Part shown: positions 21,198-37,898 of the stretch, in pieces | Position numbering within the stretch: position 1 is the first letter of the stretch | How the letters are laid out: each line of letters opens with the position of its first letter | Assembly: GCA_015488295.1 (NCBI GenBank) | Contig: WFOC01000070.1 | Span: forward strand, 1-45,657 | DNA length: 45,657 nt | Direction of reading: 5' to 3' | From: Gammaproteobacteria bacterium | GTDB taxonomy: Bacteria; Pseudomonadota; Gammaproteobacteria; SZUA-229 | Program-made: the position numbers and the translations under genes | The notes under the pieces: model-generated | Database searches by the model: none | Seen by the model: only the letters and a program-made list of their open reading frames with translations | What the model was told of the DNA's origin: nothing

Positions 21198-21722
21198 TTA
21201 CTGCGCAAGCAGCTCCTGTACAAGGCTAACCGCATCGGGCGACAGCCAGTCTTCAGTACCAACGATACGCGCAATAATTTTACCATTGCGGTCAATCAGA
21301 AAACTTGTCGGCACACCGGAAACTTCATACAGGTCACTGACCTCGCTTTCCGGGTCGAGCAGGATAGGAAAATTTATACCAAACATTTTTGAAAAATTTT
21401 CAATCCGGCTACGGGAGCCTTCATCAACCGAGACCGCAACAATTTCCAGCCCCTGATCTTTATAATCCTGCCACAGCGTTTCCATACCCGGCATTTCTTT
21501 GGTACAGGGAACACACCAGGTCGCCCAGAAGTTCAGCAATACCAGCTTGCCTTTATAGTCAAGCAGCGAGGAATTACCGCCGCGCAGGTTTTCAATTTCG
21601 AAAGCCGGCGCAACGGGGCGGTCGGCTTCTGCTATGACAGAGATTTTGGCAAGCGGTGTCGCAGCCTGCGTGATGCCACCAGCCATCATCAATAGCAGAA
21701 AGAGTATTTTTCTGTTCAGCAT
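21198..21722 (-). CDS. TlpA/ResA-like periplasmic thioredoxin
   Basis: The 174-residue protein has a signal peptide (about 20 residues) and a redoxin domain with VLLNFWATWCVPCTKEMPGM: the CxxC pair is near residues 75-78. The later GVPTSFLIDRNGKII has the cis-Pro. ResA/TlpA proteins keep apocytochrome CxxCH thiols reduced for haem ligation. It is the last gene of a five-gene operon that lies beside a cytochrome operon, so a maturation role is reasonable. It is convergent with the CD-NTase-like gene. Confidence 0.9.
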   Translation of the reverse strand: MLNRKILFLLLMMAGGITQAATPLAKISVIAEADRPVAPAFEIENLRGGNSSLLDYKGKLVLLNFWATWCVPCTKEMPGMETLWQDYKDQGLEIVAVSVDEGSRSRIENFSKMFGINFPILLDPESEVSDLYEVSGVPTSFLIDRNGKIIARIVGTEDWLSPDAVSLVQELLAQ

Positions 21723-21742
21723 TTTATCTTCCGCTTTACTGG

Positions 21743-22069
21743 TTACTGCCGCGCATGCGTCGTCAGATATTCCAGGATCATATCATGCTCCTGCGCCTGC
21801 AAAGGCGGCACATTTGCCTGCTGCATACGCTGCTGCATGGTGACTAAAATCAACTCCCACTGCTTCGGTTTCAGCATGCCCGGTTCGGGAAGCTGGTGAC
21901 ACATGGCGCAGCGGCCGGTGAACAATGCTTCTGCATCATTCGCCGAAGTGCTTTCAGATTGTGCCGGCGCTTCCTGCGATTCATCAACCTTCGCATCTTC
22001 CGCCTGCACAGAAAACAGCGGCACTGCAGCCAGCAACAGGCCCAAAAATAATGTCCGCACTATCCTCAT
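21743..22069 (-). CDS. Small monohaem c-type cytochrome
   Basis: A 108-residue exported protein: signal peptide (MRIVRTLFLGLLLAAVPLFS to about residue 23), a Ser/Glu-rich linker, then one CAMCH haem motif (ALFTGRCAMCHQLPEPGML), with possible Met ligands downstream. Its start overlaps the end of the redoxin gene by 4 bases. It is probably an electron carrier or redox partner for the thioredoxin-fold proteins coded on either side. Confidence 0.85.
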   Translation of the reverse strand: MRIVRTLFLGLLLAAVPLFSVQAEDAKVDESQEAPAQSESTSANDAEALFTGRCAMCHQLPEPGMLKPKQWELILVTMQQRMQQANVPPLQAQEHDMILEYLTTHARQ

Positions 22070-22632
22070 GGCAGGGTACTCAACACTTCAGCCAGTTTCA
22101 CACCATCCTTGTAATCTTCATTCATCATGACGATACCAGCGCTGTCAATAACAATGGTGGTTCCCATCGAGGCTTCATACAGATTAAACACAAACTGATC
22201 GGCATCAACCAGAACTTCCATACCGGCATAACCATTTGACAGCTGCGCTGCACGCGAATTAGCCACCGAACCGGTCACATAGTCCACCAGGAAAAAGCTC
22301 ACATCGGGAAAGTCGGGCATAACCTGCGCACGCATGTGGCTGGCATGAGCATCACAAATAGGACACCACATATTGAAATACAGCACCACGCCCCTGGCAC
22401 GACTAAGTTCATCATACAGGCCACGGCTGTTGCCGAGTGTATCCAGCATGGAAAAGTCCGGCGACTGCTGCCCCACCTGTATACCAATGGTGCCGGCATC
22501 AACCGCTGGTCGCTCATCATCACCGGAAGGGGTCAGGTCGTCAGTCAAGCCCTCACAACCGGCCACCGTGAGCAGAGATGTCAGCAACACCGCCATCAAT
22601 ATAAAACGCCAGATTAATTTAACGGAAAACAT
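22066..22632 (-). CDS. Redoxin-domain lipoprotein (WCPIC)
   Basis: The 188-residue protein has a lipoprotein signal with lipobox LTVAGC near residue 26, then a redoxin/AhpC-TSA-type fold: QSPDFSMLDTLGN, and VVLYFNMWCPICDAHASHM with the CxxC pair, then TIVIDSAGIVMM. The anchoring suggests inner- or outer-membrane attachment in the periplasm. It overlaps the cytochrome gene at 22069 and, by 14 bases, the barrel gene upstream at 22619. The role is likely thiol-disulfide chemistry or metal handling linked to cytochrome assembly. Confidence 0.85.
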   Translation of the reverse strand: MFSVKLIWRFILMAVLLTSLLTVAGCEGLTDDLTPSGDDERPAVDAGTIGIQVGQQSPDFSMLDTLGNSRGLYDELSRARGVVLYFNMWCPICDAHASHMRAQVMPDFPDVSFFLVDYVTGSVANSRAAQLSNGYAGMEVLVDADQFVFNLYEASMGTTIVIDSAGIVMMNEDYKDGVKLAEVLSTLP

Positions 22633-23599
22633 GGCTAACCCCCACGGTCACAATATCGGTAACCGGAAAATTCTGTCCCTGACCACTGTACGGGCTGGCA
22701 TGAATAAAAGACAGCTTATACACCCACTCACGACTCATGGTGGAGTAGGCAAGTATCGCACCGACAGAATTTTTTTCCATCTCAGTGGTGAAATCAACAC
22801 GGCCATCAATGTCACCGGCATCTTCCTGTAAATGTGAATAGCTAAGGCTGAAAGTCATGGTATCCATGTTATCAAGAAAAAGCGTATAACCAACCGTTGC
22901 TGTACCCAGCATACGGTCGCCCAGTGTCTTGCTGTAAGGTTCAACATATTTGCCGTACTCGCGATTCACATCCCGCGACAGATATTTTCCATAGGAAAAC
23001 AGCAACGTTGCATTCCACGGATAAACCGTTTTATCGACCATCACATTGGCATCCAGTCGATAAAAACCACGGCCGGTAATATCGAAGCTGTTGACCACGT
23101 CATCGTAAGGCGAGATACCCGTCGGCACCGTCAGCGACAAACCAAAATATGTCGCCGGCACCAGGTCTTTCCAGTCCTTCACTTTCCACACGCACTTGAT
23201 GCCGTCGAAAGCTTCATAGGTAACACCCAGCGTCATATCACCCAGCCCGCGGGTGTTAGACGACAGTCCCGCGTACTGATTGCTGTTCCACACATAAGGC
23301 GCAACGACGGCGGCCTGCCAGCGCGAACCCAGCCGCATGGCATAACCCAGGTTCAAACGATACTGATTCAGATCAGAACCCGGCGGGTCATTGCGGTAGG
23401 TGCCATCACCATCCCAGAAACCGTTATAGCTTTCCATATCAAAAGAAACGTCAAGCATCGACTGGGAAAATTTTGGCAGAATCAGCGAGGTCGCCGAACC
23501 CCCACCACAACAGGAGGCCGCCCACGCAGCAGGCGAAGTCAAAGCGATGCCGCCCAGCGCAAGCAGCGCCAGGGGCATCTTCACACGAGAGTACATCAC
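22619..23599 (-). CDS. Outer-membrane beta-barrel protein with N-terminal CCGGG
   Basis: The 326-residue protein has a signal peptide ending AWA (about residue 28) and a mature start ASCCGGGSATS. The rest alternates hydrophobic and polar residues in short strands with aromatic ends (YRLNLGYAMRL, LFSYGKYL, SLSYSHLQED) and ends VTVGVSHVFR, with the terminal Phe-Arg typical of barrels. The di-Cys after the signal peptide is unusual and may bind metal. It lies between the lipoprotein and the redoxin in the operon, and could be a transporter or pore. The substrate is unknown. Confidence 0.75.
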   Translation of the reverse strand: MMYSRVKMPLALLALGGIALTSPAAWAASCCGGGSATSLILPKFSQSMLDVSFDMESYNGFWDGDGTYRNDPPGSDLNQYRLNLGYAMRLGSRWQAAVVAPYVWNSNQYAGLSSNTRGLGDMTLGVTYEAFDGIKCVWKVKDWKDLVPATYFGLSLTVPTGISPYDDVVNSFDITGRGFYRLDANVMVDKTVYPWNATLLFSYGKYLSRDVNREYGKYVEPYSKTLGDRMLGTATVGYTLFLDNMDTMTFSLSYSHLQEDAGDIDGRVDFTTEMEKNSVGAILAYSTMSREWVYKLSFIHASPYSGQGQNFPVTDIVTVGVSHVFR

Positions 23600-23605
23600 G
23601 TCGTT

Positions 23606-25288
23606 TTACATCCCGCCTGGAGTCACAAAGAACATACCGTAATCATTTGTGCCATCACCTGCAGGGGTCAGGCCGTCCATGGTTTTCTGCTCACCATTGA
23701 TGGTCAAACGAACATAGATAGTGCCGGCAGTGCCATCGACCAGACCGGCAACCGGTGTAGCTGACCACTTGCCGTTACCATTATCTGTAGCCTGTACCCA
23801 ACTGGTTACATCTGTGGGATTCGTAGAAACTTCAACAGTCATCGGCGTGGCTATCAACTCATAAGGCGCGCCCGCGCCAGCATTCAGCACTGTGCCATCA
23901 GACACGGCAGGGTAACTACTCATGCTTTCCATCGCTGCGACAAACATTGTGAAATCATGTGCACCAGTGGTACCGCTCAGGCTTTCCTTGAAGATAAAGT
24001 AACTGCGACTCATGTCACCCAGCATGCCCGGGATCACATCAGTGGTCATACCACCTTTCAGGGTAACTTTCGCTGTATCACCCATGGCCATCATTACTTC
24101 AGGGTAGAGCATTGCTGACTCACTCGTGCCAGCAACGGTGTCTTCCAGTGTCACCATCAATGTCCAGTAACCCATGGAAGTACCATCCGCCATGGCAGAT
24201 GCCATCAGATAATAAACAGTACAGTCATAATCACCAGAAACAGCAAGATCTTCAACGCAATCCATATCAGGTGAACTGTGCATGTGTTCAGCCATGTGCA
24301 TCATCGGCATCAGGGTCAGCGCCAAACCTGCCTGACCAACAAGACCAGTAGCTTTATCTGTAACACGCAGCTTGAACATGCTCTTGCCTTCCATTGCAGC
24401 CATCGCACCCTCTACATACTCGATTTTATAACTGTCAGTTAATGCGACTCTGGCAAACGGCAGATTACCGATCTGGTCATTTGTCAGTCCGGTCATATTA
24501 CGACCACCACCATGGAAGGTTTCCATCGCGATAACAAAACGGTTTTGAATATCCGCAGGAAGCACAGGGGATACAGAGCTTGCGGGATCAATAACAACAG
24601 GGCCGGAAGCATCAACACCATCCAGCACGCCATCAGATAAATCACGCGCCAGTGCGGCAAACATATCGAACTGATCGTTCTGCGACAAACCCAGATCCAT
24701 CGCCAGCTGACTAAAGGCAGCCGCACGTAAACCAGACAGCTTCTCAGCATCACTTACATCTGCTGCCGGTGCTATTGTTGCATCCACAGGCAGAACAGAA
24801 ACATCCGGCGTATAACCAAAAGTATCAGCAAAAATTGTTTGTGCCTCGGTCATGGTTTTACCATGCTCCAGAACAAGGCTGGCGATAATGGTCGAGCCCG
24901 GTGTAACCGATACGCTGCTACCATTGTTGATTGAATTTGCTGCCATGTAAGCAAACATGCTGCCTGCTGTTCCCGCATTACCGGTTGCTTCATCAATGAA
25001 ACTACCACCGCTGGAAGCAATAATCAGTTCCTGCCCCAGGCTGCCGGCAGGAATACTCAAACTGTACAGACCGTCAGCATCCGTTGTCACCGCATCCACC
25101 ACAATATTACCGCTGGCATCGACCACACTAACCTGTGCGCCGGCAACCGGTGCTGCAACAATGGCACCACTGACGGTCGCCGTGCTGTCAGTATCACTGT
25201 CACTACCACTACTACAGGCCGTAAGTAACGCCAGTAAACCGATAACCGGCAATTTAAATGTTGTCGAAATCTTCAAAGGGTGTTTCAT
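23606..25288 (-). CDS. Met/His-rich lipoprotein with carboxypeptidase-regulatory-like domain
   Basis: A 560-residue lipoprotein: lipobox LLTACSS near residue 25, a Ser/Asp/Thr linker, then a CarboxypepD_reg-like beta domain (about residues 38-95, VSGAIVAAPVAGAQVSVVD). The rest is unrecognised but rich in Met, with an unusual cluster LMPMMHMAEHMHSSPDMDC near residues 325-345, which could bind Cu(I) or another metal. It is the first gene of the second operon and has a ribosome-binding site GCGGAGAAAAC. A sigma54-type promoter lies 40 bases upstream. Confidence 0.75.
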   Translation of the reverse strand: MKHPLKISTTFKLPVIGLLALLTACSSGSDSDTDSTATVSGAIVAAPVAGAQVSVVDASGNIVVDAVTTDADGLYSLSIPAGSLGQELIIASSGGSFIDEATGNAGTAGSMFAYMAANSINNGSSVSVTPGSTIIASLVLEHGKTMTEAQTIFADTFGYTPDVSVLPVDATIAPAADVSDAEKLSGLRAAAFSQLAMDLGLSQNDQFDMFAALARDLSDGVLDGVDASGPVVIDPASSVSPVLPADIQNRFVIAMETFHGGGRNMTGLTNDQIGNLPFARVALTDSYKIEYVEGAMAAMEGKSMFKLRVTDKATGLVGQAGLALTLMPMMHMAEHMHSSPDMDCVEDLAVSGDYDCTVYYLMASAMADGTSMGYWTLMVTLEDTVAGTSESAMLYPEVMMAMGDTAKVTLKGGMTTDVIPGMLGDMSRSYFIFKESLSGTTGAHDFTMFVAAMESMSSYPAVSDGTVLNAGAGAPYELIATPMTVEVSTNPTDVTSWVQATDNGNGKWSATPVAGLVDGTAGTIYVRLTINGEQKTMDGLTPAGDGTNDYGMFFVTPGGM

Positions 25289-25327
25289 GTTTTCTCCGCA
25301 ATATCTTGTTTAATCTGGAGAAAATAT

Positions 25328-25343
25328 TGCAATTAGCATGCCA
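25328..25343 (-). promoter_or_regulatory. sigma54 (-24/-12) promoter of the lipoprotein operon
   Basis: Minus-strand TGGCATGCTAATTGCA matches TGGCACG-N4-TTGCW with one mismatch and the required 10 bases between GG and GC. The predicted start is near 25318, leaving a leader of about 30 bases before ATG 25288. A second such site precedes the cytochrome operon. Confidence 0.75.
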
Positions 25344-25393
25344 GATTATTAATTGAGAAATTTCAACAGTTTACAAAAACGCCCGTTTTTAAA

Positions 25394-25410
25394 GTGCGGC
25401 ATATAACACA
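25394..25410. promoter_or_regulatory. Shared upstream motif, candidate activator site
   Basis: GTGCGGCATATAACACA matches the site at 38052-38068 at 15 of 17 positions. Its centre is about 60 bases upstream of the -24 element, where sigma54-dependent activators bind. An extra dyad, TCTGTA-N9-TACAGA (25412-25432), lies next to it. Confidence 0.55.
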
Positions 25411-25455: not shown

Positions 25456-27900
25456 TTATCGTGACGACTCAAGATGGTAATACTTGTATTTGATTTTGGT
25501 TTCGATGCCGTGGCAATCCTGACAAAATGAATCCTGGATTTTTTTTCTGCGCAGAAAACTGCTTAAAACATTGCCGCCAGCAGCCTTTTCCTGCCAGCCT
25601 GTTTTGATTTCCTGCGCCTCAATATCTTTATACGCCGACCAGCGATGCGGGTTGTGACAGGTAATGCAGGCGATGCTGCCGAACTCGTTTATCGCATTTT
25701 TATCATCCAGCAATGGCATGTCTTTTTTGTCCGAGCGTAAAATCAGATCCTTTTCCGGGTGGCTGAAATATTTTATCTGCGCTGCATCCGCTACGCCGTC
25801 CTTGCGATGACAGTTAAGGCAGGCCTGGTCACGCGGCAGCGGTTTTTCTTTGCCCTGATAGTTTTCCTTTACTGTGGCATCAAGGAAAAATTTATCGTCT
25901 TCTGCCTGGTGCATGCTGTGACAGCTACCGCAAACACCGGCCTGCTGCGGCGTTTCATGGTAACGGTTTTCACTTTCTTTGGCGCTGAGGCGAAGGTCGT
26001 GCGCGGTATTTACCAGCTTTGCATAATCTTTGTGGCAGGCATTACAAAGCTCACCGTCTTTATTTTCAACCACCAGCAAAGCGCTGCCCGGCTTGCCATC
26101 GTGCGCGCTGTGACAACTCAGGCAATCAACAATCTCAATCTTTTTACCATTGATCTTCACCGGCTCGTCAAGTTTGATGTTCACCGGATGCACACCTTTT
26201 TTACGCGCCTCCTGCAGGTCTTTTGCATCATGGCGCTGATGACACTGCACACACATCTGTGCGCTGTCTGTTTTTATCAGCGTTAATTTTTCTTCATCTG
26301 AACCATGAACCTTGTGGCAACTCTGGCATATCATCTGCTGCTGATCATTCAGGCTGGCACCTACTGCTTTCATTTTTTCCGGCAGGCCTTTTTGCAGGTT
26401 TTCATCTTTTGCATAAAACTTGCTGGCCTCTCCCGGCTTCAGAAAAAAACCTACCGGATGGTTGACTCCCACCGCTGTGCGCTTTTTATGCTGAACGTTA
26501 TCGTATTTTGATTCGTGACATTGCAAACAGATTTCACCTGCAACATTTGATTCCCGCATCCAGCTGTTATTTCTTTCTTCTGTTATCTGCTCACTGTCAT
26601 CGCTTTCAAACTTATGCGGCGTATGGCAGCTACCACAATACAGTTCTTTATCTTCATTTTTACTTTCATCGCCATTTACACTTATCAGCGGAAACAGTTT
26701 TGCTATTTTGTCTGCCTCCTGGTCACGCGTTTTTTTATCATCACGCCGATGATGAATATCTGGATGCTGGTATTTTTCAGCAATGGCATTGCGCGAATCA
26801 ATAACCACGCCGTGGTGACAGCTGTAACACATGCGCTGATGTGCAACGGGGGCAACCGGCACATCGGGCTGGTCACGCGCATGCAGCGGTGCTTCAAAAT
26901 TACCAGCCCATGAAATATGACAGGCAATGCAGTTTTTTCCGGCACTGTGACTGCGCAGATCAGCCTCCGGTTTTTTATCCACCGCCTGCTGCGGCGTATT
27001 GATTAAACGAAAAATATCGATACTGTTATTCGCCGTGTCCGTAACATAAAGCCGGTCTTCATGCAGCGTAAGGCTGGTCGGCGACTCAAACCTCAGAACA
27101 GTATCACCAGCATTTAACAGCCCCAAAGACCGGCCATTTTTAAAAACCGCAAGCTCACCCAGATAGGCATCACTGACCAGAAGGTAATCCTGCGCATTCA
27201 GTGCAAGACCGTTCGGGCGAAACAGCCCGCCTTTTACGCCCACACCAAAACGCCCGACATTCATAACATGCCGGCCACCCGAGGTGAACATCTGCACCCT
27301 CGCATTGAGCACATCAACCGCAAAAATATAACCCTGTGCATCCACTGCCAGCTGGTAAGGATATTCAAAATGGCCATCGGTATCGCCTCTTTCACCCCAG
27401 CATTGCAATAATGTTCCGTCATTAATATCACTGCTGCACAGGCGATGATTCTCGCGGTCGCTCCAGATAATCCTGTTTTCCATAATCAGAAGTGATACCG
27501 GTGCCGGCCGAACGGCCGTTGAATTTTCATCCGACAAAAAAAGGTGGCGAACAAACCTTCCCTGCAAATCAAAAACCGCGATGCGTGCATTTCCGGTATC
27601 CGCAATATAAACCCGCTGACCGCTGATACTTATCGCCATCGGCAGCAACAACTCGCCCCTGCCCCTGCCCGCTTGTGCAAAGCTGTTTTTTTTCTTGCCC
27701 TGTCCGGAAAAAACCACAACCTGCGACTGCGCGCCATGCAACACATAAATATCACCGTTGCCAGAAACCGCTGTATCGGTGGGCTGGCCATAACCTGTTT
27801 TTATACTCAGCACACGCTCTGCCACCAGGGCCGCGTGCAACGGCTGGCAACACAACAGCCACAGCATGAATACAAAGGCTTTTATGGCAACACGGATCAT
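25456..27900 (-). CDS. NHL-propeller / dodecahaem c-type cytochrome fusion
   Basis: The 814-residue protein has a signal peptide (about residues 1-24), an NHL/six-bladed beta-propeller (about 25-310; repeats such as ADTGNARIAVFDLQGRFVRH and VTDTANNSIDIF) and then a multihaem region with 12 CxxCH motifs (about residues 325-800: CIACH, CYSCH, CGSCH, CLQCH, CQSCH, CVQCH, CLSCH, CNACH, CGSCH, CLNCH, CITCH, CQDCH). I see no lipobox and no C-terminal anchor. The propeller may dock the protein to a partner. It is the last gene of the cytochrome operon and overlaps the previous one by 4 bases. Confidence 0.9.
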   Translation of the reverse strand: MIRVAIKAFVFMLWLLCCQPLHAALVAERVLSIKTGYGQPTDTAVSGNGDIYVLHGAQSQVVVFSGQGKKKNSFAQAGRGRGELLLPMAISISGQRVYIADTGNARIAVFDLQGRFVRHLFLSDENSTAVRPAPVSLLIMENRIIWSDRENHRLCSSDINDGTLLQCWGERGDTDGHFEYPYQLAVDAQGYIFAVDVLNARVQMFTSGGRHVMNVGRFGVGVKGGLFRPNGLALNAQDYLLVSDAYLGELAVFKNGRSLGLLNAGDTVLRFESPTSLTLHEDRLYVTDTANNSIDIFRLINTPQQAVDKKPEADLRSHSAGKNCIACHISWAGNFEAPLHARDQPDVPVAPVAHQRMCYSCHHGVVIDSRNAIAEKYQHPDIHHRRDDKKTRDQEADKIAKLFPLISVNGDESKNEDKELYCGSCHTPHKFESDDSEQITEERNNSWMRESNVAGEICLQCHESKYDNVQHKKRTAVGVNHPVGFFLKPGEASKFYAKDENLQKGLPEKMKAVGASLNDQQQMICQSCHKVHGSDEEKLTLIKTDSAQMCVQCHQRHDAKDLQEARKKGVHPVNIKLDEPVKINGKKIEIVDCLSCHSAHDGKPGSALLVVENKDGELCNACHKDYAKLVNTAHDLRLSAKESENRYHETPQQAGVCGSCHSMHQAEDDKFFLDATVKENYQGKEKPLPRDQACLNCHRKDGVADAAQIKYFSHPEKDLILRSDKKDMPLLDDKNAINEFGSIACITCHNPHRWSAYKDIEAQEIKTGWQEKAAGGNVLSSFLRRKKIQDSFCQDCHGIETKIKYKYYHLESSR

Positions 27901-28613
27901 TTCAATAAATCAGTCATGCGCAAACGCTGCTCATCTTTTTTGAAGCGACTGAAGAAGCGCGGTATGGCATGACGCTGCAGTTTTTTGATTTCTTTTTCGC
28001 TATAACCCAGCGCATCCAGATCCAGCAGCTGTTTTTTATTATCATGACACGCCAGGCATTTCGGCCCCTGCTCACTAAGCGGCGCATGCACTTTTGCTTT
28101 CAGCTCTGCGCGCTGCACAGGCGATTCTTTTTCCCATGCCTGCTGAATTTTTACCGCAAACTCATTATCTGAAAAAACCGGCACCGGCTGAGCATCATAA
28201 AATGGCGTAATACGTTTTGTCGAATCTTCATTCTCATTTTCATCAAACGACAGCCAGCGATATTCAAGCGGCACATCCTGCGGCTGAAAATGACAGCTCA
28301 AACAGCTGATATAACGACTGTGCATATTCAAAAAACCCCGCTTTCGCTCATCCTTTTTATGCGGCGGTGACAGGTGGCAGTCATTACAGAATTCTTTTTT
28401 ATCCGTCAGCTGCGGCGGCTTCTGCTGATGAAAAGGCGGGACAAAAATATTTTCCTTTATTTCTACGACCTTGTGATCTTCTATCTGCTTGCGCGCTTCC
28501 TGCAGTGTTTTATCATCGACTGTCGCATTCTCAAACTGCTCGACATACAATGACTGTGCCTGCACCACAAAAACAAACAGGCATAAACCGATGAAACTGA
28601 AAAACCTCTTCAT
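27897..28613 (-). CDS. Periplasmic trihaem c-type cytochrome
   Basis: The 238-residue protein has a signal peptide (MKRFFSFIGLCLFVFVVQAQS) and three CxxCH motifs: CNDCH, CLSCH and CLACH. The long acidic and basic linkers contain several His (HSRYISC; PPHKKDERK) that could serve as distal ligands. It overlaps the 12-haem gene by 4 bases and abuts the quinol-dehydrogenase fusion by one base. It is a probable soluble carrier between the inner-membrane complex and the larger cytochromes. Confidence 0.88.
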   Translation of the reverse strand: MKRFFSFIGLCLFVFVVQAQSLYVEQFENATVDDKTLQEARKQIEDHKVVEIKENIFVPPFHQQKPPQLTDKKEFCNDCHLSPPHKKDERKRGFLNMHSRYISCLSCHFQPQDVPLEYRWLSFDENENEDSTKRITPFYDAQPVPVFSDNEFAVKIQQAWEKESPVQRAELKAKVHAPLSEQGPKCLACHDNKKQLLDLDALGYSEKEIKKLQRHAIPRFFSRFKKDEQRLRMTDLLK

Positions 28614-30838
28614 TATTTTTTCTCCGCCGAAGGTTTCTTCTGTTTATTTTTTTTGTTTGACACATTCGAACGCTTCACTTTTGCTTTCGGCTTACGGCCA
28701 ATCATGTGCTGCTGAAAATGGTCGCCACCGAACAATGAGAAAACCACCGACTTTTTCTTTTTGGCAAACAGGCTCCACAACAATGAACCAACGATGAGAA
28801 CGGCAATAACAGGAACAACAAAGGCCAGAAAACGTTTCCATGGCGAATCCAGATTAAACATCTGTGAAAAAACCGTTCGCTCATAAACCGGAATGTAATC
28901 GATGTCATGCATATCACTGTTAACAAAAACACTGTTAATTGCCTTGCTGGAAAAGGCATGACACCCCGAAGCCGAGCAGGTTTCAGACAGATTGTCTTCA
29001 TGCGTCGAGGCCGTTACATCCTTGCTTCCCTGTATTGCATGTTTGTCTTTTTTTGTTGCGTGACAATCATTGCATGACACGCCATCCTCATCACCGTTCG
29101 CCAGCAGACGACCATGCAATGTCATCGCGTAGGAGTCGCTGGCCAGAATAAAACGGTTACTTGCCGCGTGCTCTTCTTTTGTCTCACTGTCCTCGATCTC
29201 AACCTTTTTCATTCGTTCCCTGTCTGCATGACACTTGTTACACATTTTGTTTTCATCTTCCTTGCTCTGCCGCCCGGAAAGAAAACGGCGCATAATGTGG
29301 CCGCCAAAACGGTTGAGCCATACCTTGCCCTGGTGACAGTTACCACAGGTGGTTTCGGTATGTGAAAATACTTCTTTAAACGCCGGCATTACCTCGGCAT
29401 CGATATACAGACTGTTCTGATGACATAAGCGGCACGATGGATTCTGTTCCTGTTCGGCTTCCTGCAAACGGTTGCCGCCAGTGAAGCCTTTGCTCCAGCC
29501 GGTGCCGTGTATCGATTTTTCAAATACCTCGGTGGCCTCTTTATGCGTATAAGCTTCGCCTTCAGAGGGCTCTTCCAGATGACAGGATGCGGCGCAGTCA
29601 ACTTCACCATTTTCTACCTTGTGCGGAAATGATTCGATTTTCCGGTGACAATCGGTACACGGCACACTGCCGTGCAGGGAACTGAGATAATGCTGCTGAT
29701 CAATACTGGCGTTTCGCAGCACGCCTTCGTCATCGATAAATTCCAGCCCCTGCAGCGCATGACAGGAAAAGCAGCCATCAAGATCAACCTGCCGCTGCTT
29801 CGCCTGCACCTGGGTGATGGTGACAAATAAAATACTCAGCCCGATAATCAACCCCAGTATCACACGCTGCCAGTTGATCGCTTTCAAACCCCTAGCCTGC
29901 GGTTTTTTGAAGTGTATTGCCTGCCATTCAGGCAGCGGATGAAAATCGATACCTTTCTTTTTTCGTTTGGGCTGATTATCCGGTGGCAGCGCCAGCCAGT
30001 CGATGGCGTGCCAGTCGCAAACATCAACACACTCATGACAGGACATGCACGACAGCTGATCAACCACCGCCACCCGGTCAACCATTTTTATCGCACCGGT
30101 CATGCAGTTACGCGCACAGATATTGCAACCGGTGCAGCGATCACGCTCGACACGAATGCGACGGGTAAAACGGAAGTTTGCACCGAGTCGATTAACCAGC
30201 CCGTCCATAGCACCGATGGGACACAAAAACTGGCAGTACGCCCGGCCTTTGCTGGCAAAAAATCCCAGTAAAAAAAGCAGCGCCAGATTAACCAGGCCTA
30301 TGCTTGAAAAAATAAAAAGAAAGCCGCGAATATTATCTGTGATGCCGGCACTGAACGCTTCGAACACACGCGGCACGGTTATAAAATTACACAGGGTGCA
30401 GGCACTGATACCAAGCGTTGGCATCAGCAAAACATATACCGAAAAATAACCGTAGCGAATCGGCACCTGCGGCAACGAGCGATATTCTATTTTCCATCGA
30501 TCATTCAGGCTGCGACTGACCAGTTCAGGAAAGCCGCCAACCGGGCAAATATATGAACACCACAGGCGGCCATAAAAAAACGTGGCGACAAAAATACCTG
30601 TCAATAGAAGAACGCCTATCCACGCTACGGAAATTGCAGTATTAAAATCCTCCAGACTCATCTCGGGGAAATAAAGAAAAAACCGGCGCATGCACATTTT
30701 TCCACACAGGTCATCATTACCCAGCGCTGCTGGAATAAGCGCAAATGGCGCAAAAAACAGCAGACAGGAAGTCATGATAATGAGGTAACGGTATTTCTGC
30801 TCGCGCGGAATATCTTTTATTTTCTGTATGAATTTCAT
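28613..30838 (-). CDS. NapH-like quinol dehydrogenase fused to an octahaem domain
   Basis: The N-terminal third is NapH-like: four membrane helices (about residues 25-205 of the longest form), two CX3CP sites (LWCSYICP, AYCQFLCP) and two ferredoxin [4Fe-4S] motifs (CTGCNICARNC; CMSCHECVDVC). A fifth helix (about 333-352) leads into a periplasmic region with six CxxCH motifs, one CX3CH (CAASCH) and one CX4CH (CSASGCH). A C-terminal helix (about 677-697) and a lysine-rich tail follow. It could pass electrons from quinol through iron-sulfur centres to haems in one chain. ATG 30838 follows the upstream stop; ATG 30856 is an alternative. Confidence 0.88.
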   Translation of the reverse strand: MKFIQKIKDIPREQKYRYLIIMTSCLLFFAPFALIPAALGNDDLCGKMCMRRFFLYFPEMSLEDFNTAISVAWIGVLLLTGIFVATFFYGRLWCSYICPVGGFPELVSRSLNDRWKIEYRSLPQVPIRYGYFSVYVLLMPTLGISACTLCNFITVPRVFEAFSAGITDNIRGFLFIFSSIGLVNLALLFLLGFFASKGRAYCQFLCPIGAMDGLVNRLGANFRFTRRIRVERDRCTGCNICARNCMTGAIKMVDRVAVVDQLSCMSCHECVDVCDWHAIDWLALPPDNQPKRKKKGIDFHPLPEWQAIHFKKPQARGLKAINWQRVILGLIIGLSILFVTITQVQAKQRQVDLDGCFSCHALQGLEFIDDEGVLRNASIDQQHYLSSLHGSVPCTDCHRKIESFPHKVENGEVDCAASCHLEEPSEGEAYTHKEATEVFEKSIHGTGWSKGFTGGNRLQEAEQEQNPSCRLCHQNSLYIDAEVMPAFKEVFSHTETTCGNCHQGKVWLNRFGGHIMRRFLSGRQSKEDENKMCNKCHADRERMKKVEIEDSETKEEHAASNRFILASDSYAMTLHGRLLANGDEDGVSCNDCHATKKDKHAIQGSKDVTASTHEDNLSETCSASGCHAFSSKAINSVFVNSDMHDIDYIPVYERTVFSQMFNLDSPWKRFLAFVVPVIAVLIVGSLLWSLFAKKKKSVVFSLFGGDHFQQHMIGRKPKAKVKRSNVSNKKNKQKKPSAEKK

Positions 30839-30839
30839 A

Positions 30840-31715
30840 TTACTTTTCAAAGGCATGACATGCCAGACACAGGCTGCCGTCTTTTGCCGGCAGCCTTAGC
30901 AAAATTTCTTTTTCGATACGCTGATAATTCAGCACATAACTTTTACCCGTCTCTGCATTTAATTTTTGCAGGCGGTTTTTCTTGTCCTCGGCAAACACCT
31001 TGCCCCAGGCATGTGCGCGATAAACAACGCCTTTTTCCAGATCGTCATTAGCGACCTGTTTGCCCGCAGGTTTATCACGATCAATCACATCAATCGGGTG
31101 CGCGCTATGACAGGTAACACACATAACCTTGCCATCATCAGAAAGCGGCATCATTATTTCGTGTTCATCCTGATAGCGGCGAATTCGCTTTGCCATTTTT
31201 TTATCCGGTTTTTTCTGATGGGCCAGCGCATTGATGTGTGGCGTAAACAGGTGACAGCCATAACATATTTTTTCTGCCGGCAAGCGCAGATTGATTTCGT
31301 CGCGTTTAATATCGTCTTCCGGCTTCAGCACTTTTTTATGGCAATAAAGACAGCTGCTCTCGATGATCTCACCCTCGTCATCCAGCATCTTATGAACATT
31401 GTCTCGCTGGTAGTTATCCACCTCGTGACAGCGGTAGCAAAAATCACTTAATTGCGAATATGGCCCTTCACGCAAAAAATCTTCTGACTGCTTATCAATT
31501 TTTTCATAATCCTGCTGCTTCATATCTTTTATGCCGTGACAGGTCTGGCAGTCGACACGCTTCTTTTTGTTGAGCGGAAAATCATCCGGCACACTAATAG
31601 CCGCCGATGGTTCCACATCAAACACATGATGCATAGCCGGCATTTCCTGATCATCTTTTGCGTTAACCATCGAAACCGAAATCAACAGTAAAAGCATCAT
31701 CAAACAGCGAAACAT
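30840..31715 (-). CDS. Periplasmic hexahaem c-type cytochrome
   Basis: The start at ATG 31715 (coupled as TGATG to the upstream stop) gives a protein of 291 residues with a signal peptide (MFRCLMMLLLLISVSMVNA). It has six CxxCH motifs: CQTCH, CYRCH, CLYCH, CYGCH, CVTCH, CLACH. Charged linkers and extra His suggest bis-His ligation. A longer frame to 31754 adds a non-signal leader. It lies between the octahaem lipoprotein and the quinol-dehydrogenase fusion, a sensible relay position. Confidence 0.88.
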   Translation of the reverse strand: MFRCLMMLLLLISVSMVNAKDDQEMPAMHHVFDVEPSAAISVPDDFPLNKKKRVDCQTCHGIKDMKQQDYEKIDKQSEDFLREGPYSQLSDFCYRCHEVDNYQRDNVHKMLDDEGEIIESSCLYCHKKVLKPEDDIKRDEINLRLPAEKICYGCHLFTPHINALAHQKKPDKKMAKRIRRYQDEHEIMMPLSDDGKVMCVTCHSAHPIDVIDRDKPAGKQVANDDLEKGVVYRAHAWGKVFAEDKKNRLQKLNAETGKSYVLNYQRIEKEILLRLPAKDGSLCLACHAFEK

Positions 31716-32683
31716 CACATACCCGCCTGCACAGCTTCGCCGTGACTGTGACATTCGATACAGCTCTCACCGGTAAGATGCACGCCGGCAAGACCGTTGC
31801 CGGTATCAACATCACCCTGATCCTGCAGCACATCCATGGCATGACATAACACACATAACTGCGAATAATCATCGCCGTTAATGTTCACCCGGTAGGGCTG
31901 TTGACGGATGGCACTTTCGAGTTTGCTAACGCCTTTGTCCGAAGCATCAATCAGCAGCTTGTTATTGTCGGTGCCGTGCATGGCGTGGCAGTCACCGCAT
32001 GCCACGCGACTGCCGTAGCGATACGCCGCACGCAACCCGGCATAAGTACCGTTGCCTGTGGCACTTATCTCACCGTGCTTATCAACCAGCGTGTAACTGT
32101 CTTCAATCGCGATCAGGGTGTCGTCATAGGCTTTACCACTAATCTCAAATCCTGCCTGCTGGTGATCACGGTTGTGACAACGCAGACAAAAATCCGCATC
32201 GCTGGTATAAGGCGAGTTGATGCCGTTTTTATCCGGGTAGCGCGTCAGGTCACGATTGATCTCGAACACACCGTTCATATCAGAGGCGTAGTGACAGTCG
32301 ACACATTGTTTATCCTGCAGCGCATTATCAACACCCGCTACAAAATCGTGCCGATGCCGACCGCTCTGCAACGGCGACTCCGGCAAAGCACTGTCGTTGT
32401 GACAGATAAGGCACTGGCGCTTTTCGTCCGTGCCGTTGCTGCCGTGACAGCCGGTGCAGGTATCATGACCATAGTCGTTTACGATACCTCTAATGCTGTC
32501 TTCATTTTTATGGATCACCGTCAGGGCGTGACATGCAGAACAGTCTGCCAGCCCCCAGGCAGAGCCACCGCCGTGCTGCGTATCGAGCAGCAGGTCGGTG
32601 TCCGCTGATAAAATATTTTCACTGCCCGTGTCACAGGCATTGAGCAACAATAAAAAAACAAACACCAGCAAGCCGCGACTCAT
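31715..32683 (-). CDS. Octahaem c-type cytochrome lipoprotein
   Basis: The 322-residue protein has a lipoprotein signal (LLVFVFLLLLNAC, Cys near residue 17) and eight CxxCH motifs: CSACH, CTGCH, CLICH, CVDCH, CLRCH, CGDCH, CVLCH and CIECH. It has the spaced His residues of doubled multihaem domains. The Asp at +2 after the lipid Cys would, by the enterobacterial rule, favour inner-membrane retention, though this rule is not universal. It overlaps both neighbours by a few bases. Confidence 0.88.
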   Translation of the reverse strand: MSRGLLVFVFLLLLNACDTGSENILSADTDLLLDTQHGGGSAWGLADCSACHALTVIHKNEDSIRGIVNDYGHDTCTGCHGSNGTDEKRQCLICHNDSALPESPLQSGRHRHDFVAGVDNALQDKQCVDCHYASDMNGVFEINRDLTRYPDKNGINSPYTSDADFCLRCHNRDHQQAGFEISGKAYDDTLIAIEDSYTLVDKHGEISATGNGTYAGLRAAYRYGSRVACGDCHAMHGTDNNKLLIDASDKGVSKLESAIRQQPYRVNINGDDYSQLCVLCHAMDVLQDQGDVDTGNGLAGVHLTGESCIECHSHGEAVQAGM

Positions 32684-33324
32684 TGCATTCTCCGGTGACA
32701 GTCACTGCAATAACCCGTTTGATGACACGCGCCGCATTGCGCCGGTGCCATGCGCGCATCCAGCCCATGCAGGGTTTTGTAACCCAGAGGATGCATGTCA
32801 CCTTTACTCATGTTTCGTTTGAAGTGACAGTCTGTGCAAAACGCCGTTTTTTTGTGACAGGTATTGCAGGCAGCCTGATCCTGCTGCGCATCAAGGGCGT
32901 GATTATTTGTATAATCGTAATTATGATCCGCCGGCCAGATTGACGATGGCTGTATGTGACACAAACGGCACTCGGACGGCGCGTTCATTTTTTCAACATG
33001 GCAATCATGGCAGATAACTTCCAGCGCTTCGTTGTTTATCTGCCGGAGTTGCGCCAGGATTTTTTCATCGTGCACATTATTTTTACTGAAAGGATGACAT
33101 AACATGCAGGCATCACCACCGGCCTCCATTACATCCATATGCGGTTTATGCGGATAAAAAATATCCGCCTTATCCTGACGAATCTGCCACCAGCTTTTTT
33201 CTTTTTTGTCTACTGCTTCTTTTTTACCGAACACTTCAGGCAGTGCCTCCGCTTCACCCTGCACAGCAAGCGGCAACATCAGCGGCGATATAAACAACAG
33301 CAGCATAAAAAAGCATTTACTCAT
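32680..33324 (-). CDS. Periplasmic heptahaem c-type cytochrome
   Basis: Starting at ATG 33324 (GGAG six bases upstream), the protein is 214 residues with a signal peptide (MSKCFFMLLLFISPLMLPLA). It has seven CxxCH motifs: CMLCH, CHDCH, CRLCH, CNTCH, CTDCH, CGACH, CSDCH. The last four are closely spaced at the C-terminus, as in compact NrfB/CymA-like or Shewanella-type carriers. It lies directly after the barrel gene in the operon, so it may plug or feed the barrel as MtrA does MtrB; this is inference. Confidence 0.85.
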   Translation of the reverse strand: MSKCFFMLLLFISPLMLPLAVQGEAEALPEVFGKKEAVDKKEKSWWQIRQDKADIFYPHKPHMDVMEAGGDACMLCHPFSKNNVHDEKILAQLRQINNEALEVICHDCHVEKMNAPSECRLCHIQPSSIWPADHNYDYTNNHALDAQQDQAACNTCHKKTAFCTDCHFKRNMSKGDMHPLGYKTLHGLDARMAPAQCGACHQTGYCSDCHRRMQ

Positions 33325-33337
33325 TGACCGCTCCATT

Positions 33338-34639
33338 TCATCGACCACTCCAGCTGCTATCATCAAAGCGATAACTCAGCCTGAAACTGAAACGGTATTC
33401 ATCCTCAAGATTCTCATCGTAAATATAGCGTGCGTTAAAATCAATAAACAGATCCGATTGCAGCATCCGCTCTACCACCACCTGCAATGCCAGCACCCGG
33501 CTGTTTTTTTCTGGTGATGTATCTTTATACTGCAGGGCTGTGTTGAAGCGCGCACGCATGGTCGCTGACACGCTTTTGTCACAGCCCAGATAAAGACTGT
33601 GAACAACATCTTCTTTCAGCACCAGGCTATCCCACTGCAACTGCCAGTTGAACTTTTTTTCGCTGGCGGCTTTTTTCTCGAAGCCGGCACTGACTCCATA
33701 ACCGCTATTACCAAACTCTCGCCATACTTTCCGCCCGCGAACATAATACTGCTGATTCCATTGATGCTGGCGAAACAGTTCGCCCTGCAAAGTCGTCTGC
33801 CGGCCGTTGGCATATACCGAATAAAACAGCTCCTTAAAACTCAGGCGCGTCTGCTTTGGATTCCATCGGTTATAACTTACACGCGCCAGGCCAGCATCTT
33901 CTGAACTGAACTGAACGCCGGCGTTGATTGTTTCCGCTGCATTATTTTCCAGCAGGTAGTTGCCGGTAAAAAACAGCCTGACCGGCTGCAGCGCAGTTTT
34001 ATCTTTTGCCTGATCACCCTCAGCGGAGAAACGCCAGTGCAGGTAGTTTTGCTTTGTCTCTTTATACAGTTGCTGCCAGCCGGCATGCACACTGGCATTT
34101 TGCAGCAGGGCATTATCAATATGAGAAAACTGTTGCGTCACATCAAGGCCATAGATCCGGCCTGCATCAATGGCATGATAGTTTTCCAGTTGTCGCGGAC
34201 GACCAACATGAAAACCTGCCCGCCAGTCGTTGCCGGCATAATCTGCCTGCACACCATCCAGGCTGTAAAAACCCAGCAGGTCGGAACGATTGAAGCGACC
34301 CAGCGTGTAATCGATGGCAGCCGTGCGTTGTGAAAAAAACAGCTGGTTTATCTGCTGATCAGCGCGATTGTCCAGATAGTCCGGCACATCCGTTTCTTTA
34401 TAGCGCAGGTCAAACTGTGCACCAGCATGCATCGTCTGCTGTTCACTGAGCCAGTTAATTTCCGCCTGCTCTTCAATATAGTGCCTGCTGTAATACGCCA
34501 CCTGCTCTGTTTCAAGATGCGTATCCAGCCTGCCTGAAACATACGCGCGCGCGATACCGGAACAACTAAAAATCATCACACATACAACAACACGCTTTAC
34601 ATCTACCCGCAAACGGCCTCTGTTCGAGCCTGTAAACAT
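33338..34639 (-). CDS. Outer-membrane beta-barrel protein of the cytochrome operon
   Basis: The 433-residue protein (ATG 34639; 34672 is an alternative) has a signal region ending near SGIARA and then many amphipathic strands with aromatic girdles (RDTH-like, YTLGRFNRSDLLGFYSLDG, YLHWRFSAEGD, LFFTGNYLLE), ending RFSFRLSYRFDD. No CxxCH motif is present. In porin-cytochrome systems a barrel of this kind holds a multihaem protein to cross the outer membrane. I cannot match it by eye to MtrB, OmbB or ExtD. It is placed between the Cys-rich peptide and the heptahaem gene. Confidence 0.78.
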   Translation of the reverse strand: MFTGSNRGRLRVDVKRVVVCVMIFSCSGIARAYVSGRLDTHLETEQVAYYSRHYIEEQAEINWLSEQQTMHAGAQFDLRYKETDVPDYLDNRADQQINQLFFSQRTAAIDYTLGRFNRSDLLGFYSLDGVQADYAGNDWRAGFHVGRPRQLENYHAIDAGRIYGLDVTQQFSHIDNALLQNASVHAGWQQLYKETKQNYLHWRFSAEGDQAKDKTALQPVRLFFTGNYLLENNAAETINAGVQFSSEDAGLARVSYNRWNPKQTRLSFKELFYSVYANGRQTTLQGELFRQHQWNQQYYVRGRKVWREFGNSGYGVSAGFEKKAASEKKFNWQLQWDSLVLKEDVVHSLYLGCDKSVSATMRARFNTALQYKDTSPEKNSRVLALQVVVERMLQSDLFIDFNARYIYDENLEDEYRFSFRLSYRFDDSSWSGR

Positions 34640-34643
34640 GGAC

Positions 34644-34874
34644 TTATTTATATGCGTCCTTGCCTTCAACAAAAAACTCGCTTCGCCGTTTTTTTAATTT
34701 CGCCCAGGCAACGATAGAACCCAGGGCGATAACACAACTGCCGCAACTGATACAACGCCCCTGCGTTGTCAGTGTGCAGTTACTGGTAACGGCGATATGG
34801 CCGAGCGCAAACCCGGCACCAGCCAGCCATGGCATTACCTTTTCGAAAGTTACTTTTTTCTCTTCATACTTCAT
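34644..34874 (-). CDS. Small Cys-rich membrane protein
   Basis: A 76-residue protein (ATG 34874; a longer frame to 34940 has no clear site). Two hydrophobic segments (about residues 14-30 and 47-58) flank a loop with four Cys, C33, C41, C44, C47 (NCTLTTQGRCISCGSC), spaced CX7CX2CX2C. The C-terminus is basic. The Cys set could bind an iron-sulfur cluster or zinc, or take part in thiol chemistry. It sits between the octahaem and barrel genes, so it is part of the operon. I do not recognise the family. Confidence 0.7.
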   Translation of the reverse strand: MKYEEKKVTFEKVMPWLAGAGFALGHIAVTSNCTLTTQGRCISCGSCVIALGSIVAWAKLKKRRSEFFVEGKDAYK

Positions 34875-34955
34875 GGCGTGACTCTTTATTACTGCGACAA
34901 AAGGCTGTTGCCGCGAAGCGGGTAAGCTGCGCGGCAACATGCTTTTTTTATAAAC

Positions 34956-37898
34956 TTACACTGACTGTTTTTTAGCCCTGATACGCAAGCTATATAAAGC
35001 CGGCAGCAATAACAGCAGCCACGGTGCTGAACCGCCGCCACTGGACGCGGCTTCAGCCACTGATGATGAGACATTGCTCTCATCTGCCAGTGCGATGGTG
35101 TAATAACTGAAGTGCACCGTTCTGAATACCAGGTAGCCATCTTCTTCATCGGTCTGCTTGTTCAGCAGGACGATGTTGGCCGCATCAACCGTTGACCACT
35201 GCTCACCATCGCTGGAAGTGATCAGACGAATTTTATCCAGGCTGGTTTCCGAACCTTTATATGGCAGCTTGACCAGCACACTGGCACTGCCGAAGTTGCT
35301 CACATCGTTGCCACTGCTGTCACTCGCCTGCAATGAGAATACTGATGTATTCAGACCACCGAATCCGGCAGCCGCAGCAGAATTCACCACCGCTTTATCA
35401 GCCAGTGCAATCTTGAACTTATAATCAGGGAACACTCGTTCGGTCTGGCTGTTAACCACCGGCATCACTGCCACCTTGCGTACATCCGGTTCGCCGTACA
35501 CCGGTGCAAACACATACAGTTCATTTCCTGCCTGCTGAACAAGCGTATCGATATGATCCGCCCGGAGTACGCCGGCAAGCGCAGCAGCTTCTACCGTGCT
35601 GTGCCGACTGACCTTGCCAGACATTTCAGATGCTATGTCCGCATTCAATATACTCAGCGAAGGATTAATGCGCGTGCTTTGTAAAATATCCGCCACATTA
35701 ATGGAAACCACGCCGTTGGCATCGACTTTCATATAATCCTTATCCAGCTCGACAATGCCTTCTGTAATCAGGCGCGTATCTGGCAGGGTAAATATGTCCA
35801 GCGAGTTTGTTGTACCAAGCACACTGTCGTCAGCCACCAGCGCACTGAAAGCACCATTCTGTTTCCGCGCATGACAGTCTTCACACTGCAACGACTCCGG
35901 TCCCGGACGGGTGTTGTGGTTCATGATGTACTGGTTTGATTCAGTCAGCACCATGACGGCGTTGGCATTTTCAATACCTTTCATCTTGAACACTTTGTTG
36001 TAGGCGTTACGCAGCGCCAGGTAACCGGCGTAATCTTCCGGATCACCATAACGGATACTGCCATGTGATTCACGCGCACTGACCTGCGCCAGCTCGGCAC
36101 CGGTTTCCGGATCGACAATCACGCCATACATTTCATCCGTCGCCATCACCATGCCAGGCATGGATGTATCGGCACCACGCAACTCAAAAACTTTGTTGCG
36201 CTCGGTTTTGCTCAGGATGGTGCCGGTGTTTTTGTCTTTCCAGTAAGCACGATCACGCTGTGCGTAAGGAATAATACGCAGCTCACCATCTTCTTCCTGA
36301 CGGTAGCGATACAGGATGGGCAAGGTTCTGCCACGCGCAACCTTGTCTGTAATATGGCAGGCCTGACAGGTCATCACATCCAGATGCGTCTGCGTAATGC
36401 GCGACAATGAGTCGGCGGTATAACCAAACATGTCGCCCTGGGTTTTCCAGAGTTGTAAATGCGCATTCAGCATGCTGTCCTGACCGGAAGGAATCGCCGG
36501 TGTTTCTGCATCGTCATGGCAATACACACAACTGCGTGCATTCGGGCTGTAGTCCAGATCGTTACGCAGATCCATATCCGAATTTCCTTTCAGGAAATTA
36601 TGGTTGGCATCGAGATCAACGTTGGCATAATCAGGTTTGTAGTAATTGCGCGAATGACAGGCGTTGCAGTTTTCAATCTGCCGCTCGACACCGTTCTCTG
36701 TCCAGGTCAAACCTTTATGCACATCATCCTTGTAGTCTTCGATCAACAGACCGTCTTCATCATAAGTAGGCGTTGCATCTTCACCAAAACCGTAGAAACC
36801 ACGGCGTGAGTTACTAGTTCTGTGACAGGCCATGCAGTTTTCATTTTCAGGAAAACGCAACATGGGGATGGCCACTTTTTTGTTGGCATCAAACGCATCC
36901 ACATTCCAGTTGATAACAGGGTTCGCATCAGCATCAAGATTCAATGCATAGTTTGGCTCTGTTCGCATGTGGATGGCATCGGGCGATGCCGTGTCGCGAC
37001 TGAAGTTAAGCAGCGTCTTATCGTTCGCCGGATCAGCCGTCATATTCAGATTAAGAAATTCCAGAATGCCGGTGCCGGCATATTTGAAAAAGCCCTCGCG
37101 TACCAGCATGGTACGACGCAGCTCCTTGGCGTGTGCCGGCGCATCACTGGCGGTGTCTTCTCCGGTAAGCGGATCGATAGTCACCAGCTGCGGATCGGTT
37201 TTAACCATCGCGTTTCTATCGGCGTGACAAAGGAAACAATCGGCTTCAACCACGCCGCTTTTTTTCCAGTCCCACTGGGTAACCACATCTTCCTCGGCAG
37301 GCTGATTATTTTCATCCGTACCACGGTTAAAGTAATCACCATCAAACGGTTTTACAGTACTGGCATCGGTTTCATCATAGCGAACACCGTTGCGGTCTTT
37401 CTCCATCCAGCCACCACCGGTGTGGCAACCAACACAACGCTGCACCAGACCAGCTGAACCTTTGTCGGCAAAATCAGACTCACTGGTATTCGATTTTTTC
37501 GCCAGGCGATCCGGGTTACTGCTACCCATGCAGTTATAACCACCGAAATATCCCGGTGACACAAGAATTGGCACACCATGATTTTTACCAAAATTATCGT
37601 CCGCTTCATCCCGGCCCATTTCGAAATGGAAAGCGGATGTAATTGACTCGTAGTCATGACAACCCGAAGTACCACAGGTTGTTTTTGAACTATAAGGCTG
37701 ACCACTGTCCAACACATGGTTGCCCTGCTCATCAAGTATCGGTATCGCCGGATGCAACACAGGTGCAGCCTGAAGCTGCATAGCCGTCAGCGATAAAAGC
37801 AGAGCGATTAAAAATCTTGAAAAAATATTTTTACGGCCAACGTCCTTGCCAGGATTTATAACACTACCGGTAGCACCGGCCAATACATCAGTTTTCAT
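34956..37898 (-). CDS. Large octahaem c-type cytochrome with GlyGly-CTERM-like tail
   Basis: The 980-residue protein, first in the operon, has a long N-region then a hydrophobic signal ending near LQA (about residue 44). It has seven CxxCH motifs (CVGCH, CFLCH, CMACH, CNACH, CVYCH, CQACH, CEDCH) and one CX4CH (CGTSGCH, about residue 76), spread over residues 76-680. A Cys-poor C-terminal domain ends SSGGGSAPWLLLLLPALYSL followed by basic residues, as in GlyGly-CTERM sorting signals cut by rhombosortase and linked to type II secretion. It is the best candidate for a surface-exposed terminal cytochrome. Confidence 0.9.
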   Translation of the reverse strand: MKTDVLAGATGSVINPGKDVGRKNIFSRFLIALLLSLTAMQLQAAPVLHPAIPILDEQGNHVLDSGQPYSSKTTCGTSGCHDYESITSAFHFEMGRDEADDNFGKNHGVPILVSPGYFGGYNCMGSSNPDRLAKKSNTSESDFADKGSAGLVQRCVGCHTGGGWMEKDRNGVRYDETDASTVKPFDGDYFNRGTDENNQPAEEDVVTQWDWKKSGVVEADCFLCHADRNAMVKTDPQLVTIDPLTGEDTASDAPAHAKELRRTMLVREGFFKYAGTGILEFLNLNMTADPANDKTLLNFSRDTASPDAIHMRTEPNYALNLDADANPVINWNVDAFDANKKVAIPMLRFPENENCMACHRTSNSRRGFYGFGEDATPTYDEDGLLIEDYKDDVHKGLTWTENGVERQIENCNACHSRNYYKPDYANVDLDANHNFLKGNSDMDLRNDLDYSPNARSCVYCHDDAETPAIPSGQDSMLNAHLQLWKTQGDMFGYTADSLSRITQTHLDVMTCQACHITDKVARGRTLPILYRYRQEEDGELRIIPYAQRDRAYWKDKNTGTILSKTERNKVFELRGADTSMPGMVMATDEMYGVIVDPETGAELAQVSARESHGSIRYGDPEDYAGYLALRNAYNKVFKMKGIENANAVMVLTESNQYIMNHNTRPGPESLQCEDCHARKQNGAFSALVADDSVLGTTNSLDIFTLPDTRLITEGIVELDKDYMKVDANGVVSINVADILQSTRINPSLSILNADIASEMSGKVSRHSTVEAAALAGVLRADHIDTLVQQAGNELYVFAPVYGEPDVRKVAVMPVVNSQTERVFPDYKFKIALADKAVVNSAAAAGFGGLNTSVFSLQASDSSGNDVSNFGSASVLVKLPYKGSETSLDKIRLITSSDGEQWSTVDAANIVLLNKQTDEEDGYLVFRTVHFSYYTIALADESNVSSSVAEAASSGGGSAPWLLLLLPALYSLRIRAKKQSV

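Follow-up and report, generated by a model that had tools for sequence, protein, structure and literature searches.

A conserved nine-gene multihaem cytochrome unit in a gammaproteobacterial genome, probably an envelope-spanning electron conduit

Gene content and limits of the locus

The window analysed here is a 45,657-nucleotide stretch of DNA, contig C70 of a 2.7-Mb gammaproteobacterial genome (G000) that is 88% complete, and within it lies a run of genes, designated A to N, rich in multihaem c-type cytochromes (Table 1). A sequence-only reading had taken these as a two-operon, 14-gene electron conduit with eight c-type cytochromes and 53 haem motifs. Its inventory holds. All 14 reading frames were confirmed at the coordinates in Table 1, all on the minus strand, and a recount (CXXCH, CX3CH and CX4CH motifs, minus a ferredoxin motif of G) again gives 53, with 52 haems in A-I. 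Two barrels (C, predicted with 22 strands, and K, of the Phenol_MetA_deg family), a Met-rich lipoprotein (J), two thioredoxin-fold proteins (L and N) and a Cys-bearing membrane peptide (B) are likewise present. In the six cytochromes tested, the motif histidines are kept in 93-100% of relatives, so the haem motifs are not chance occurrences.

The single 14-gene system, on the other hand, does not survive comparison with relatives, and we reject it. Genes A-I are separated by overlaps or gaps of at most about 15 bp and J-N by overlaps or gaps of at most 20 bp; the one exception to this close packing is a gap of 167 bp (25289-25455) between I and J. Because J-N adjoins A-I in some loci only, and because K is present in 18 of the 54 genomes of the host's order as against six for C, gene order in relatives marks the nine genes A-I (25456-37898) as a conserved unit and J-N as an independent, accessory five-gene module. 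Barrel K, lipoprotein J and the thioredoxin-fold proteins L and N, previously counted as conduit parts, sit in this separable module, which is often found without A-I. A promoter scan gave sites no more numerous than in shuffled sequence.

Table 1. Genes of the A-I unit and of the J-N module in the window
Gene	Coordinates	Strand	Haem motifs	Description
A	34956..37898	-	8	980-residue octahaem surface cytochrome; signal peptide, haem region ~75-680, ZU5/GAIN-like domain 756-942, HFS 929-931, GlyGly-CTERM-like tail
B	34644..34940	-		Small membrane protein, four conserved Cys, no family match
C	33338..34672	-		Predicted outer-membrane barrel of 22 strands; true start probably ATG near 34639
D	32680..33366	-	7	Heptahaem cytochrome, candidate wire within barrel C; likely real start downstream of listed TTG
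E	31715..32683	-	8	Octahaem cytochrome, lipoprotein signal
F	30840..31754	-	6	Periplasmic cytochrome with six haems; true start probably ATG near 31715
G	28613..30856	-	8	Predicted quinol dehydrogenase: NapH-like Fe-S membrane part joined to an eight-haem domain
H	27897..28613	-	3	Trihaem cytochrome
I	25456..27900	-	12	NHL beta-propeller and twelve-haem cytochrome
J	23606..25288	-		Met-rich lipoprotein; first gene of module J-N
K	22619..23599	-		Second barrel, Phenol_MetA_deg family; module J-N
L	22066..22632	-		AhpC/TSA thioredoxin-fold protein; module J-N
M	21743..22069	-	1	Monohaem cytochrome; module J-N
N	21198..21722	-		TlpA/ResA-like thiol-disulfide protein; module J-N

Conservation and distribution of the A-I unit

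The order A-B-C-D-E-F-G-H-I is found in those C-bearing genomes of the host's order with enough sequence, save that B was not picked up in two of them (G050 and G040). A gene-neighbourhood search shows that the arrangement recurs outside this order as well: when named genomes were scanned with G, 44 loci were obtained, almost all of them under the titles Gammaproteobacteria or proteobacteria and including Chromatiales-like bacteria, Sedimenticola, Candidatus Venteria and Methylococcales (among them Methylococcus capsulatus), and in most of these loci A-I stand in a common order. The A-I proteins appear to co-evolve, the evolutionary distances of eight of them correlating at 0.77-0.95 across 22 loci. 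Distribution across the class is nevertheless patchy, A being present in 7 of 369 genomes (6 of 272 genera) in an even sample.

Some loci deserve separate mention. The conduit genes also occur on a contig titled Candidatus Polarisedimenticolaceae (Acidobacteriota; L036), the sequences of which nest among gammaproteobacterial copies, a placement that reflects either mis-binning or horizontal transfer. A restriction-modification-like gene set (Eco57I-type methylase, SNF2/PLD helicase) is inserted between G and H in L060 (12322-20486) and L061. In methanotroph locus L063 (16122-22067), genes for a CcmA-like ATP-binding cassette protein, CcmB, a CcmC-like protein, CcmF and TlpA lie directly downstream of the conduit, with similar gene sizes in L055, L056 and L064; such cytochrome c maturation genes may constitute a dedicated haem-loading set.

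Correspondence with the MCA0424-0433 operon of Methylococcus capsulatus

Comparison of the window proteins (tblastn) with M. capsulatus Texas reveals the gene order A, B, A', C, D, E, F, a NapH-like gene, an 8-haem gene, H and I (locus L070), with 7+7+7+8+6+6+3+14 = 58 CXXCH motifs. For strain Bath, Larsen and Karlsen (PMC4831470) described an eleven-gene operon starting at MCA0424 that codes for eight multihaem cytochromes with 58 CXXCH motifs and a barrel, MCA0427. Gene order and haem number match, and the Texas operon is therefore that of MCA0424-0433, the 'CRC1' operon, in a region also noted in PMC517821. The window unit belongs by its sequence to the same operon type, Texas having been compared directly and Bath through its published order and haem number. 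Alike are gene order, the barrel and the surface cytochromes. The window differs in having one A instead of two, a fused instead of a split G, 12 instead of 14 haems in I, an E that is a lipoprotein and an A that bears a sorting tail; TlpA and other downstream genes differ too.

In strain Bath the operon is induced by copper starvation, and the A orthologues MCA0424 and MCA0426 were detected at the cell surface; the authors considered electron export 'highly plausible' while noting that biochemical evidence was lacking (PMC4831470). The earlier view that the gene set resembles no named system thus stands with respect to MtrCAB, Ext and PCC3, but a locus of the same order had been described in MCA0424-0433, albeit one for which a conduit function has only been proposed.

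Barrel, relay cytochromes and quinol dehydrogenase module

C is predicted as a 22-strand barrel (predicted local distance difference test score, pLDDT, 85.7), and the predicted structure aligns with TonB-dependent receptors at Z of about 20 and a root-mean-square deviation (rmsd) of 3.8-4.8. TonB-dependent receptors are 22-strand barrels whose lumen holds an entire plug domain. C has no NCBIfam or Pfam family match and no PDB sequence at E<=1; solved MtrB is not among the structure matches listed for C, which says nothing either way. D lies directly behind C in nearly every locus and carries seven haems in a short chain, making it the best candidate for a wire through the barrel. In A, D, E, F, H and I there are at least as many conserved non-motif histidines as haems, and distal histidines that match the haems favour conduction over catalysis. 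In all relatives (L010-L068), B has four Cys (CT-x-GxC-x2-CGxC type) beside hydrophobic segments. Filament cytochromes OmcS, OmcE and OmcZ were not listed in profile searches of A, D, F and I, searches in which distant relatives would be missed.

G begins with a NapH-like Fe-S membrane part, behind which come eight haems with a transmembrane segment on either side. G covers nearly the whole napH model TIGR02163 (76 bits, cut-off 213), and on this similarity it appears to be a relative of NapH, not NapH itself. A ninth haem (CXXCH at C270) was rejected, this being a 4Fe-4S ferredoxin motif whose His is not conserved. G is coded by two genes in methanotrophs and some others, and in such split relatives the haem-bearing half retains exactly 8 haems. 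A quinol-handling role is supported by paralogues of the G haem domain that adjoin cytochrome b561 proteins on another contig of the window genome (C20). That contig (L023, L024) holds a second NHL/multihaem region, which looks like the Uet system compared below. It codes for three NHL proteins and for cytochromes with 24 and 12 haems, besides two trihaem genes and a pair of eight-haem genes that each adjoin a cytochrome b561.

Surface cytochrome A and its sorting tail

The haem motifs of A comprise seven CXXCH and one CX4CH at residue 75. In most loci outside methanotrophs, A ends in a tail in which a GGGS-type motif is followed by a hydrophobic stretch and then by basic residues. Against the GlyGly-CTERM model TIGR03501 the window A scores 14.3 bits (cut-off 15.5), the only match in its genome at E<=1, and the L036 orthologue 15.4 bits. 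The window genome also codes for a rhombosortase (153.7 bits, cut-off 84). More broadly, rhombosortase is above cut-off in 18 of 19 tested genomes with a GlyGly-type A tail, the exception being an 85%-complete genome, but in only 2 of 14 whose A is without one. Ignoring kinship, this gives a Fisher value of 3e-6; on the tree, however, the tail state changes at least four times and only about three independent pairs test the link (p about 0.25). We therefore claim no significance, and the link between tag and enzyme rests on matching enzymes rather than on statistics. In this regard, the orthologues of L028 and L030 end in the unrelated JDVT-CTERM tag (36.7 and 44.8 bits, NF033191 cut-off 27), and their genomes carry the JDVT protease MrtJ (107.1 and 106.6 bits, cut-off 75) but, by model search, no rhombosortase above cut-off. 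Methanotroph and Sedimenticola orthologues have no tail. GspD was found in 10 of 10 genomes tested. In the window host, type II secretion probably exports A, and rhombosortase probably anchors it through the GlyGly-CTERM-like tag. As in known GlyGly-CTERM/rhombosortase surface proteins (PMC3237569, PMC6219818), there is a Gly/Ser motif, a hydrophobic stretch and a basic end in a genome with rhombosortase and GspD; in contrast to these, the cargo is a multihaem cytochrome and the tail falls slightly under the family cut-off. Within the collection of papers searched, none combines 'multiheme cytochrome' and 'GlyGly-CTERM'.

The predicted model of A (pLDDT 69) aligns over residues 756-942 with ZU5, FIIND and GAIN domains (Z 8-10, rmsd 3.0-3.7, 126-137 residues), whereas Foldseek with the whole protein gave no match at E<=0.001. 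Some ZU5, FIIND and GAIN domains self-cleave at HFS or HLT motifs. A has HFS directly before the sorting tail (residues 929-931 and nearby, window 35073-35112), and the motif is missing from all tail-less orthologues but kept in the tailed ones, except that the G011 locus (L016/L027) has KFS and L041 has HFG. These exceptions make obligatory self-cleavage doubtful, and a structural role for HFS is equally possible. We suggest, tentatively and at somewhat less than even confidence, that outer-membrane conduits of this type form a class of their own. Its hallmark would be a terminal multihaem cytochrome that is sorted to the surface by an exchangeable C-terminal tag, GlyGly-CTERM being paired with rhombosortase and JDVT-CTERM with MrtJ, while some members have no tag; a ZU5/GAIN/FIIND-like domain that is perhaps self-cleaving would be a further feature.

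Proposed electron path and alternatives

What, then, might the unit do? The sequence-only reading had proposed an extracellular electron transfer conduit with quinol dehydrogenase, periplasmic relay, barrel and surface cytochrome, and this is the best-supported reading for A-I, though it does not extend to the parts in J-N. We think it reasonably probable that A-I form one envelope-spanning conduit of the same kind as MCA0424-0433, with net flow most likely outward. G would oxidise quinol, and by way of its haem domain the electrons would pass to F, H and E in the periplasm; from there they would reach D, seated in barrel C, and finally octahaem A on the cell surface, exported and anchored as suggested above. 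The proposal draws on the conserved gene order, the correlated evolution of the proteins, the conserved haem ligands, the NapH-like part of G and the b561-associated paralogues of its haem domain, the predicted barrel, and the tag with its matching enzyme, whereas the sequence of electron transfers, the seating of D in C, the direction and the anchoring are inferred. I has no fixed place in this path. Outward flow might serve as electron overflow or as a route to an extracellular acceptor. A is placed at the surface terminus because its orthologues were found at the M. capsulatus surface. Copper-starved M. capsulatus reduces ferrihydrite and gives an anodic current (Tanaka et al., PMC6281684); the proposal gains support because copper starvation, which raises both activities, also induces the MCA0424-0433 operon, and the outward direction is favoured because G is quinol-dehydrogenase-like and because of these anode data.

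Several observations weigh against this proposal. The tail of A and the NapH similarity of G both fall below their model cut-offs, the former narrowly, and the model of A is of middling confidence. We know of no mutant of the MCA0424-0433 operon. Deletion of MCA0421, a neighbour outside the operon, cut current by only about a quarter, and Tanaka et al. also discuss electron uptake and propose a gain of reducing power under copper starvation (PMC6281684).

That last proposal would fit a conduit that runs inward, in which A accepts electrons (from Fe(II), minerals, an electrode or a partner cell) that then feed an autotroph's respiratory chain or quinone pool. The window genome codes for an rDsr-type dsrA and two RuBisCO large subunits, and its host is likely a sulfur-oxidising autotroph, which leaves the direction of flow open; Uet, with NHL and trihaem parts in common, has moreover been linked to cathode and iron oxidation. 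G, however, resembles quinol dehydrogenases and not oxidase-side carriers, and only anodic, outward current was measured in M. capsulatus (PMC6281684), so we regard inward flow as unlikely. Less probable again is a single system A-N, with J-N handling copper and making the conduit responsive to copper status: J is rich in Met, with conserved Met/His, several loci have J-N genes next to A-I and the M. capsulatus operon is induced by copper starvation, but K is commoner than C, lies on a different contig in G040 and G050, and no J-K-L set was seen in the methanotroph loci among the 44. Least probable is that A is a surface enzyme related to octahaem tetrathionate reductase (OTR) and fed with electrons by the other genes to act on a soluble sulfur or nitrogen compound. 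In its favour are weak similarities, A reaching 1e-9 over half of model TIGR04315 and matching the fold of OTR structure 1sp3 weakly (Z 5.4, rmsd 5.3, 202 residues, 17% identity); against it, the TIGR04315 score is 38 bits (cut-off 375) and, while one OTR haem is Lys-ligated, A has a conserved non-motif His for each of its eight haems and hence no obvious open haem.

Through the outward conduit proposal, a copper-controlled operon that had stood alone in a model methanotroph is linked with a conserved conduit of sulfur-oxidising autotrophs; both groups are seldom counted as electron-exporting bacteria. The conduit type appears, from comparative sequence evidence, to be real, conserved and as yet unnamed, having been noted in one methanotroph where its function was only proposed. 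New are the finding that hosts other than methanotrophs carry the unit, its delimitation to nine genes, the fused form of G and the exchangeability of the surface tag on A. Should the sorting-tag interpretation be correct, surface cytochromes could be displayed via rhombosortase or MrtJ, and not only as lipoproteins. A deletion method exists for M. capsulatus (PMC6281684), making conduit function directly testable.

Neighbouring features

Elsewhere in the window, a cobalamin riboswitch (38623-38795, plus strand; Rfam RF00174, 42.2 bits) immediately precedes the gene for an anaerobic class III ribonucleotide reductase (38911-41013), with the gene for its radical S-adenosylmethionine activase at 41155-41868. 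A CBASS-like nucleotide cyclase (20212-21159, plus strand; SMODS domain, NF041117 107.8 against a cut-off of 200) is convergent to the J-N end.

Comparison with known conduit systems

Profile checks for MtrA, MtrC and Ext gave no score above cut-off: A reaches 24.4 bits with the MtrC model TIGR03507 (cut-off 209.3), F and I 28.4 and 47.7 bits with the MtrA model TIGR03508 (cut-off 192.2), and the ExtS NCBIfam model 24.3 bits (cut-off 100), with other Ext models absent from the matches listed. PCC3 combines a periplasmic cytochrome of 21-27 haems with an extracellular one of 10-35 (PMC10734462), counts that the window cytochromes do not show. The gene list of Uet (tetrahaem UetA, PPIase (peptidyl-prolyl isomerase) UetB, three trihaem cytochromes, a separate NHL protein and undecahaem UetJ; PMC10734462) likewise differs from that of the window unit. 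On these scores, haem counts and gene lists we reject membership of MtrCAB, Ext, PCC3 or Uet; a 2026 Methylobacter anode cluster (PMC13322032), a four-gene MtrA/MtrB-type locus, is rejected as a match too.

Uet, known from Candidatus Tenderia and Gallionella (PMC10734462, PMC5371394), shares with the window unit an NHL propeller, a trihaem and an approximately 12-haem cytochrome and a barrel, but the window unit is without a tetrahaem cytochrome or PPIase, has one trihaem cytochrome, not three, carries its NHL part fused to a haem part and adds a NapH-like module. With MtrCAB, PioAB and MtoAB it has in common a barrel with periplasmic and surface multihaem cytochromes and, putatively, a similar way of working, and it is set apart from them by octa- and heptahaem instead of decahaem cytochromes, a predicted 22-strand barrel and a NapH-like quinol module of its own.

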